Positions 41,196-44,119 of a DNA stretch of 64,000 nucleotides are shown piece after piece. The notes beneath the pieces were generated by a model. That model saw only the letters and a list, made by a program, of their open reading frames with translations, made no database searches and was not told the DNA's origin. Every line of letters starts with the position of its first letter. Position 1 is the stretch's first letter. Source of the stretch: Patescibacteria group bacterium (GTDB lineage: Bacteria; Patescibacteriota; Microgenomatia; UBA8517); assembly GCA_035549555.1 (NCBI GenBank), contig DASZQR010000010.1, positions 310,001-374,000 of the forward strand. Reading direction: 5' to 3'. The position numbers were made by a program, and so were the translations under genes.

Positions 41196-43943
41196 CTACT
41201 TAATTCTCTCGACTTTAAATTCACCCTTAGAAATATTTTTTACAAGCGCTCGCTTTTTAATTTCTTCTTCAAATTCCTTTGGCCAATCAGGAAGTGTAAC
41301 ATCCACAAATTCATCTAAATTAGTTTTCAAGTTCTTGCGTTCTTCCTGAATTTTACGAACAACATCTCTCATTTCCCCTTCAGCCTTAAGTTCAGCAGTT
41401 ATGTTTGTATCAAGTTTAAATTCTTTTCCAAAAACAATATTTTTTACATTAACTTCATCCATCAAAACATTTTTAAGTTCATCACTAAATTTATAATCTA
41501 CAGTCAACAAATTAAGTGGTTGTCGCAATGATATTAAACTCTCTTTTCTCATTGAATGAGTTTTTTCAGAAGCTTTTCTCACCTCATCCATTTCATTTAA
41601 AAGTTTTTGACTATTTTTGTCCAACTCTTTACTTTCAGGCCAATCAGCCAAATGCACTGAAATTTCTTTTGTTAAATTTTTATAAATTTCGTCGCTAACA
41701 AACGGCGCAAATGGTGCCATCAATTTTGCAACTGTTACTAATACTTTATAGCTTGTTGCAAAAAATCCATCATCGGTTCTACCTCTACTTCGTCTTATAT
41801 ACCACTGCGAAAAATCCTTAACCACAAAATCTTCAATCTCATGTGTAGCAGTAAACATATCAAAATTATCCAAACTATTTGTAATTTTATTAACTAATTC
41901 TTGAAGTCTTACTTCCATCCATCTATCTAAAATATTTTCGCTCTTTTTTTCTTTTCCTGGTTCCCAATTATTCAAATTTGAGTAAGTTACAAAATAATTA
42001 TAACTATTCCAAAAAACCAACATAAATCTTTTTATGACATCGCGCACTAAATTTTCTGAAAATCTAAAGCTTGGCCCTGGTGCAATTGTCGAATACATAT
42101 ACCATCTTGTCGCATCCGCTCCAACATTATTAATCACTTCAAAGGGATCAATTACATTTCCTTTCGATTTGCTCATTTTATTTCCTTTTTCATCAAGCAA
42201 ATGCCCCAAACAAACCACATTTTTATATGCATTTTCGCGTCCTAAAAGGGTTGCTTCAGCAAGAAGTGTATAAAACCACCCTCGAGTTTGATCGATTGCT
42301 TCGCTAATATAATCAGCTGGAAAATGTGTTGCTCCGGATGCATATGGCATTGCGCCGCTATCAAACCAGCAATCCAAAACAAAGTTGACTCGCACCATAT
42401 GGCCGTTATCACACTTGCTGCATTTAAACTTTATTTCGTCAATAAATGGCCTATGAAGATCCAGATTCTTTAAATCTTTTCCAGAAAGTTCTTCTAATTC
42501 TTTAACACTCCCAACTAATAATGTATGCTCGCAATTATCACATTTCCAAATTGGAAGAGGCGTACCCCAATAACGGCTTCTCGATAATGCCCAATCATGG
42601 TTATTATTAAGCCAGTCCCCCATACGGCCTTCTTTGATGTGTTCTGGAATCCAGTTTACACTATTATTATTTTCAATTAATTTATCCTTAACTGCAGTAG
42701 TTTTTAAATACCAGGAAATCATTGCATAATAAAGAAGTGGCGTCCCACATCTCCAACAAAATGGATAAGTGTGTTTTAAAGTTTCGGCCTTGAATAAATT
42801 CCCGTTTTTATCTAAAGTTTCAATAATTTCTTTTTCAAGAGTCTTATTTTTTACAAATTTTCCAGCCCAGGCAGTTACATCTCCAACAAATTCTCCTTTT
42901 TCATTCACAGAATGTTTCATAGGAAGATCATATTTTTTACCAAGTTTAAAATCATCTTCTCCGTACATCACAGCGGTATGTACAATTCCTGTCCCTTCGT
43001 CCATAGAAACAAAGTCAGCAGCTACAACAAAATGAGATCTTGTGTCATAAGACATATAATTAAACAAGGGTTCATATTCAATATTTAGTAATTCTTTTCC
43101 TTTAAATTTTTCTAAAACTTTTCCTTCAATCTTTAAATCTTTAAATCTTTTCTCAGCTAAAATTAATTTACCTTTTTCCGTTTCAACTTTTATATAAATT
43201 TGCTTTTCATCTACTGCTAAGGCAACATTTCCCGGAAGCGTCCATGGTGTTGTTGTCCATGCAAGAAAATAAGTTCCTTTTTCCTTTTTCAATTCAAACT
43301 TTATAAAGACAGATGGATCTTCGGTCATCTCTTTATAACCAAGAGCTAGTTCATGAGAAGAAAGTGAAGTTCCACATCTTGGGCAATACGGCAAAACTTT
43401 ATAATCTTCATACAAAAAGTCCTTCTCCCACATTTCAGCAAGAAGCCTCCATTCTTTTTCAATATATGAATTATCCATTGTCCAATATGGTTTATCAGTA
43501 TCGACCCAATAAGCCATGCGCTTTGTTAATTTTGTCCATTCATCAACATATTGCAAAACACTTTTTCGGCAAAGTGCATTAAATTCTTTTATTCCGTATT
43601 CTTCAATCTGAGGTTTTCCAGAAATTCCTAGTTCTTTTTCAACTTTAATCTCCACGGGAAGTCCATGACAATCCCAGCCAGCTTGCCTTGGGACATCAAA
43701 TCCTCTCATGGTTTTATATCGAGGAACAATATCTTTAAAAGAACGTGCTTCGACATGATGAATTCCAGGATTTCCGTTTGCAGTTGGCGGCCCTTCATAA
43801 AAAGTAAACGTCTTTTTTGAATTTTTGTTTTTTTCAAGAGATTTTTGAAAAATGTTTTCTTTTTCCCAAAAAGACAAAACATTCTCTTCCATTTTTGGAA
43901 AATTTACCCTTGGATCAACTTCGTTAAAATATTTTTTTGACAT
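41196..43943 (-). CDS. ileS: Isoleucyl-tRNA synthetase
   Basis: 915 residues, class Ia. It has the HIGH-type motif GNPGIHHVEARSFKD near 56, WDCHGLPVEIKVEKELG, the editing domain (TTTPWTLPGNVALAV near 228), KWGNK-like YWGTPLPIWKC, and the KMSKS motif KMSKSKGNVIDPFE near 590. The anticodon-binding domain begins QWYIRRSRGR. The far C-terminal zinc finger of the longer bacterial type is absent. Expression is controlled by the T-box leader upstream, with the Shine-Dalgarno AAAGGAG inside a sequestering hairpin. Confidence 0.96.
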   Translation of the reverse strand: MSKKYFNEVDPRVNFPKMEENVLSFWEKENIFQKSLEKNKNSKKTFTFYEGPPTANGNPGIHHVEARSFKDIVPRYKTMRGFDVPRQAGWDCHGLPVEIKVEKELGISGKPQIEEYGIKEFNALCRKSVLQYVDEWTKLTKRMAYWVDTDKPYWTMDNSYIEKEWRLLAEMWEKDFLYEDYKVLPYCPRCGTSLSSHELALGYKEMTEDPSVFIKFELKKEKGTYFLAWTTTPWTLPGNVALAVDEKQIYIKVETEKGKLILAEKRFKDLKIEGKVLEKFKGKELLNIEYEPLFNYMSYDTRSHFVVAADFVSMDEGTGIVHTAVMYGEDDFKLGKKYDLPMKHSVNEKGEFVGDVTAWAGKFVKNKTLEKEIIETLDKNGNLFKAETLKHTYPFCWRCGTPLLYYAMISWYLKTTAVKDKLIENNNSVNWIPEHIKEGRMGDWLNNNHDWALSRSRYWGTPLPIWKCDNCEHTLLVGSVKELEELSGKDLKNLDLHRPFIDEIKFKCSKCDNGHMVRVNFVLDCWFDSGAMPYASGATHFPADYISEAIDQTRGWFYTLLAEATLLGRENAYKNVVCLGHLLDEKGNKMSKSKGNVIDPFEVINNVGADATRWYMYSTIAPGPSFRFSENLVRDVIKRFMLVFWNSYNYFVTYSNLNNWEPGKEKKSENILDRWMEVRLQELVNKITNSLDNFDMFTATHEIEDFVVKDFSQWYIRRSRGRTDDGFFATSYKVLVTVAKLMAPFAPFVSDEIYKNLTKEISVHLADWPESKELDKNSQKLLNEMDEVRKASEKTHSMRKESLISLRQPLNLLTVDYKFSDELKNVLMDEVNVKNIVFGKEFKLDTNITAELKAEGEMRDVVRKIQEERKNLKTNLDEFVDVTLPDWPKEFEEEIKKRALVKNISKGEFKVERIK

Positions 43944-44083
43944 ATCGCTCCTTTGTCTAAGGGCGATTCTTGAAGGAACGCGGTACCACCTTAATTTGAT
44001 CTTATTCCTTGAGTTCTAGTCCCCGATCGCTTTGCCGAGCGGGTTTCTTCTCCAAGCTCCGGATTGATAATCCATCAAAGCTT
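43944..44083 (-). promoter_or_regulatory. T-box riboswitch of ileS (short, apparently translational)
   Basis: Minus-strand leader of about 140 nt. It carries the T-box consensus AAGGTGGTACCGCG (43979-43992), whose TGGT bulge pairs with an uncharged tRNA 3' end. A hairpin (about 43945-43966) pairs TCGCCCTT with AAGGAGCGA and covers the Shine-Dalgarno right before ATG 43943; there is no T-run, so control is probably at translation. The 5' part forms a short arm (44051-44088) with GGATT-ATC-AATCC at its tip, ATC being an isoleucine codon. A middle hairpin, CCCGCTCGGCAAAGCGATCGGGG, separates them. Confidence 0.85.
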
Positions 44084-44089
44084 TGAGTC

Positions 44090-44119
44090 ATTATAACACA
44101 CCATTTTCATATCTATCAA
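44090..44119 (-). promoter_or_regulatory. Promoter of the ileS T-box transcript
   Basis: On the minus strand: TTGATA (44114-44119), an 18-nt spacer, TATAAT (44090-44095). The start falls just before the specifier arm. It overlaps the last codons of the upstream gene. Confidence 0.6.

Follow-up and report, generated by a model that had tools for sequence, protein, structure and literature searches.

T-boxes have been described as a Gram-positive speciality, with the pairing of a short Stem I and translational control found mainly in actinobacteria. In class III T-boxes, translation is the main level of action (PMC10482949), and a long, elbow-binding Stem I is generally required by transcriptional T-boxes (PMC7583486). 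In the T-box database, the search with the translational model was confined to Actinobacteria and to class I hits that were truncated (PMC7778990). A search of the open-access literature for T-boxes in CPR, Patescibacteria, Parcubacteria or Saccharibacteria found no relevant account. The leader described here, which precedes ileS in a CPR genome, shares with the class III ileS T-boxes of Nocardia farcinica and Mycobacterium tuberculosis a short Stem I without the elbow-binding end, translational control of ileS, an Ile specifier in an apical loop of 5-6 bases and a Stem II with an S-turn, all predicted in the present case (PMC10482949, PMC7583486). It differs from them in lacking Stem IIA/B, in having nearly no Stem III, in its CPR host, and in that terminators are present in most of its closest relatives within the phylum. 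The features that define class III, namely a short Stem I without IDTM, a five-base apical specifier loop and a Stem II with a predicted S-turn, are all present; Stem IIA/B is usual in the Nocardia and Mycobacterium ileS leaders but lies outside that definition (PMC10482949). With the elements behind Rfam RF00230, which are mainly long in Stem I and from Bacillota, the leader shares the T-box core, the antiterminator-type fold and a synthetase target, whereas the distal part of Stem I is missing.

The window, that is, the whole stretch of 64,000 nucleotides analysed, comes from a genome of 1.01 Mb that is 96% complete. Ribosomal protein L30 (PF00327) was absent from this genome in a search that was positive in 14 of 14 controls; of 96 genomes from the phylum just 3 scored above cut-off, against 13-14 of 14 controls, and its absence has been reported as a trait of all CPR (PMC5220378). 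Size, completeness and the missing L30 thus bear out the original prediction of a CPR host. The T-box leader, with its ultrashort Stem I and AUC in the apical loop, occupies the minus strand at 43944-44095, directly upstream of ileS, whose ATG is at 43943; about 140 nt separate the promoter from the start codon.

At the Rfam gathering threshold, no T-box is reported in the window. In a scan of 601 nt, RF00230 does align with 43956-44087 of the leader at E=1.2e-4, and since its 29.3 bits fall far under the gathering score of 93, the element is missed at default settings. A weak match of 12.9 bits elsewhere in the genome (L003) was dropped. A covariance model, R1, was built from the leaders of 12 relatives with the window excluded. 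Against the window's own whole genome, R1 gave the ileS leader as its sole strong match, at 62.7 bits (E=1.1e-12), with a runner-up of 9.5 bits. Scoring with a T-box model, the check proposed with the original prediction, thus succeeded with R1 and fell below cut-off with Rfam. At E<=0.001, R1 had zero matches in 15 genomes from lineages in which T-boxes are not known, among them Gammaproteobacteria, Ignavibacteria and Myxococcales, and weak matches were seen in Bifidobacterium, Propionibacterium, Ruminococcus and Paenibacillus. The leaders that the CPR-built model finds in Propionibacterium (L216) and Bifidobacterium (L163) are class III-shaped, and actinobacterial leaders score about 30 bits against roughly 40-128 for CPR leaders. 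In the whole genome of 1.01 Mb, there is a single exact copy of the core GGTGGTACCGCG. Across 48 aligned elements, the common helices are paired in 93.6% of cells, and the whole structure holds 256 compensatory cells, compared with 72 when columns are shuffled and no more than 71 with slid partners, a count that leans towards the model because the alignment was fitted to it. The features of the locus are as follows.

44090 to 44119, minus strand: promoter-like site read from the sequence, with TTGATA (44119-44114), an 18-nt spacer and an extended -10 element TGT-TATAAT (44098-44090).
44055 to 44082, minus strand: ultrashort Stem I, with base AGC/GCU, kink-turn-like UUUGAU...GGA, upper stem GGAU/AUCC and loop UAUCA, from the fold; the homologous helices covary in the 48 elements.
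44066 to 44068, minus strand: specifier codon AUC (Ile), followed by the purine A44065, at the equivalent loop position in relatives' ileS leaders.
44008 to 44055, minus strand: Stem II (helix 3) with predicted S-turn strands AAGAAA (44049-44044) and ACUAGAA (44020-44014), from the R1 alignment.
43993 to 44007, minus strand: linker GAAUAAGAUCAAAUU, in place of the relatives' Stem IIA/B (CGGGUAAGCCCGU..AGC), whose positions are deleted in the R1 alignment.
43979 to 43992, minus strand: T-box sequence AAGGUGGUACCGCG with T-box core AAGGTGGTACCGCG, from the sequence, the RF00230 match and the R1 alignment.
43959 to 43992, minus strand: antisequestrator (helices 5 and 6), pairing AAGG (43992-43989) with CCUU (43962-43959), GCG with CGC and UUC with GAA; -5.1 kcal/mol.
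43944 to 43967, minus strand: sequestrator hairpin AUCGCCCUU-AGACA-AAGG(A)GCGAU, its last base adjoining the ATG; -10.4 kcal/mol.
43948 to 43953, minus strand: Shine-Dalgarno (SD) sequence AAGGAG, 4 nt ahead of the start codon, from the sequence.
41196 to 43943, minus strand: ileS, isoleucine--tRNA ligase of 915 aa (TIGR00392, 891.9 bits, above cut-off).

Taken as a T-box, the leader has a core with the UGGN bulge in an antisequestrator fold, a UGGU that matches A73, AUC ahead of ileS and a competing sequestrator. Very probably it is a T-box that acts on the translation of ileS, its ultrashort Stem I being class III-like. On both points, a T-box and ileS as the gene downstream, the original prediction is upheld, by the R1 match, the covariation and the agreement of specifier and tRNA for the former and by the TIGR00392 score of 892 bits for the latter.

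The predicted transcription start, at about 44084-44082, falls right at the base of the 28-nt Stem I. As the promoter boxes sit immediately upstream, there is no room for a longer Stem I, and a TATAAT-like box likewise stands just before Stem I in relatives. Under a strict geometry, AUC occupies the apical loop in 13 of 16 ileS leaders, with the runner-up codon at 4 of 16 and shuffles at a mean of 0.6 and a maximum of 3; in the other three, the window's among them, AUC fits by eye with a wobble pair or another loop length. The arms themselves vary in sequence among relatives (GGCG/CGCC, ACUAG/CUAGU, CCCGG/CCGGG, AGGG/CCCU and others) while AUC stays constant, and leaders of other synthetases obey the same code, with TAC before TyrS and GAC before AspRS. 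The tRNA-Ile(GAU) of the window's genome carries A73, which fits both AUC and the T-box UGGU (43988-43985) that faces the tRNA ACCA end. A very short specifier arm with ATC at its tip had been claimed, and this stands; of the arm as drawn, GGATT-ATC-AATCC, the codon at the tip holds and the triloop does not, relatives favouring GGAU-[UAUCA]-AUCC with a five-base loop. The minimum free energy fold can also close the window's apical loop down to 3 bases. An alternative hairpin, UUGAU/AUCAA, which would bury the specifier, was rejected as less stable than the canonical Stem I.

Beyond Stem I, Stem II is paired in 97.5% of cells of the alignment. Stem IIA/B (helix 4) is occupied in 44 of the 48 aligned elements but is absent from the window's leader in the R1 alignment. 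In Nocardia, deletion of the Stem IIA/B pseudoknot lowers tRNA binding about 1,200-fold (PMC7583486). The window's switch, which lacks this element, either compensates for it or is weak.

How this leader stands among its relatives was assessed from up to 142 related genomes, which yielded 119 ileS leaders. A strict T-box core pattern that took in ACCACG variants was present in 16 of the 119, the window counted, and the covariance model added two (L048, L062). A poly-U terminator follows in 14 of the 18 T-box-bearing leaders and is missing from the window's leader and from two members of its family (G011, G046), so that this comparison partly counts against the original prediction, which had named a conserved poly-T terminator in relatives as a contrary sign. 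Four ileS leaders of the same CPR class (L050, L092, L108, L144) share with the window's leader an apical-loop AUC, the S-turn strands, the T-box core and the synthetase gene; their AUC loops have 6-8 bases, and they possess Stem IIA/B and a U-run terminator, neither of which the window has. Neither of the ileS genes nearest in sequence (69% and 64% identity) is preceded by a T-box, and the next-closest (61%, another family) has one of the terminator type. On a tree of 30 ileS genes, the presence of the T-box is patchy, requires at least 5 gains or losses, and does not track the tree (5 changes on 6 labelled rows, no better than with shuffled labels). An altered core (G[CG][TC]TGGTACC, then TTT) was also observed (L048, L062/L357, L379); two of the elements that carry it stand before ileS in family f11, with terminators.

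The loss of Stem IIA/B, the empty leaders of the two nearest ileS genes and the repeated gains or losses would all suit a T-box descendant in decay, with poor binding of tRNA-Ile and its regulation of ileS lost. This reading is unlikely, as nothing else has eroded: the promoter, the specifier loop with its kink-turn-like bulge below, the S-turn strands, the full T-box core, the tRNA match and the exactly placed SD hairpin are preserved. In addition, a leader of another family (L057, G083) is also without IIA/B and retains both T-box and terminator, so the loss need not mean decay.

A switch is suggested by the two folds at the 3' end of the leader. The 9-bp sequestrator is built from the 3' strand of the antisequestrator, making the folds mutually exclusive: CCUU (43962-43959) can pair with either the AAGG of the T-box or that of the Shine-Dalgarno. 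The antisequestrator helices covary in the 48-element alignment. Ensemble energies are -13.8 kcal/mol for the sequestrator and -9.1 for the antisequestrator, so that without ligand the former is better by about 4.6, in calculations that leave out the kink-turn, the S-turn and any contact with tRNA. Within the SD, the sixth base is the bulged A, and the other five have pairing probabilities of about 0.89-0.99. The hairpin over the Shine-Dalgarno was therefore correctly anticipated, as was the lack of a terminator T-run, no U-run terminator lying between the T-box and the ATG. A competing SD pairing, CGUUCCUU/AAGGAGCG, was rejected as weaker (-8.5 kcal/mol) than the 9-bp sequestrator. The genome contains the canonical 16S 3' end GGATCACCTCCTT. 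SD-like motifs of at least 4 bases precede 9 of the 54 ORFs of at least 100 aa in the window, which suggests many leaderless or SD-less starts; given this rarity, a six-base SD before ileS is suggestive. Leaders L143 and L142 of the window's family are terminator-free as well, and in L143 it is again the antisequestrator strand to which the SD, AAGGTG, is paired.

From the folding model, when no suitable tRNA is bound the 3' strand of the T-box domain would mask the SD by pairing with it, and ribosomes would be unable to initiate. How tRNA binding and charging would act is inferred from the known mechanism of the T-box family. By this analogy, an antisequestrator stabilised by tRNA would keep the CCUU strand, freeing AAGGAG for the translation of ileS, and charged tRNA-Ile, unable to hold the T-box bulge, would turn ileS off again. 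The mechanism is ordinary; the novelty is in the host and the detail.

Could the element act on transcription instead, with the hairpin before ileS serving as a pause or Rho-dependent termination site and not as an SD mask? Related elements often have intrinsic terminators at the same place (34 of 46), but the window's leader has no U-run, and its hairpin includes the SD and ends immediately ahead of the ATG, a layout typical of translational T-boxes, all of which makes this very unlikely. Chance resemblance, for which the Rfam score well under the gathering threshold might be cited, can be dismissed, given the E-value from a model that excluded the window, the agreement of the specifier with both the synthetase gene and the discriminator base of the tRNA, and the covarying helices.

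A second, weaker T-box is present in the same genome before thrS (L002:218-1483 and 1502-1697; G000:C10:211264-211448, minus strand). The gene (TIGR00418, 421 aa) is without the first ~165 profile positions; the T-box scores 33.5 bits with R1, its UGGA fits U73 of tRNA-Thr(GGT), and its leader has no clear SD or terminator.

Across the phylum, short-armed T-boxes are widespread. RF00230 at E<=0.1 matched in 70 of 142 relatives, only 9 of them above cut-off, and R1 at E<=0.001 matched in 134 of 380 genomes sampled across the phylum. Among the 46 short-armed elements examined, which comprise the class's 18 ileS leaders and the top matches from the phylum scan, the 34 intrinsic terminators pair with the antiterminator strand; shuffled sequences gave 3-11, and sites within genes 6 of 33. 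Judged by sequence, the window's element is placed in the translational minority of this set, which seems to combine a class III head with either a terminator or a sequestrator as output. The original prediction that the locus would widen the known range was right in direction but understated in extent, because short-armed T-boxes are phylum-wide and apparently mostly transcriptional. It is somewhat probable that the CPR short-Stem-I T-boxes form a large undescribed population in which this head is joined to a terminator, in the majority, or to an SD sequestrator, a few working without IIA/B. Five model matches from clostridia and Thermoflexus (L176, L179, L183, L215, L154), first suspected to be short-armed, were not counted, since their flanks resemble the 3' half of a long Stem I.

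Several other leaders were noted in the scan. Three more T-boxes are terminator-free and have an SD-type or start-region hairpin: L305 (G119:C7), valS-like by eye with GTC and apparently no Stem II; L299 (G100:C4), before a gene with a GGC specifier; and L361 (G376:C1), before TyrS (TAC). Tandem T-boxes, two consecutive copies with core GGTGGAACC, occur at L032 (G058:C3) and L310 (G119:C9). Before aspS, T-boxes at L356, L367 and L371 (and L363) have AAC, a codon for Asn, as their apical-loop triplet, and three of these loci encode an aspartate--tRNA(Asn)-type protein; related leaders (L362, L364, L373, L378) have GAC instead. Read from these codons, the pattern suggests that in some lineages an Asp/Asn synthetase may be governed by the charging of tRNA-Asn.

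These observations make T-boxes common in the CPR, a group about whose gene control hardly anything is known, and indicate that the Rfam cut-off conceals nearly all of them. The window's leader is also a natural case in which to test whether a T-box can do without the IIA/B pseudoknot. If the proposed CPR population is real, the accepted link between a short Stem I and translational control would be broken, as would the view that fast transcriptional decisions require an elbow-binding long Stem I. With the CPR set, it could be tested directly whether short-armed T-boxes are able to act in the time that transcription allows.
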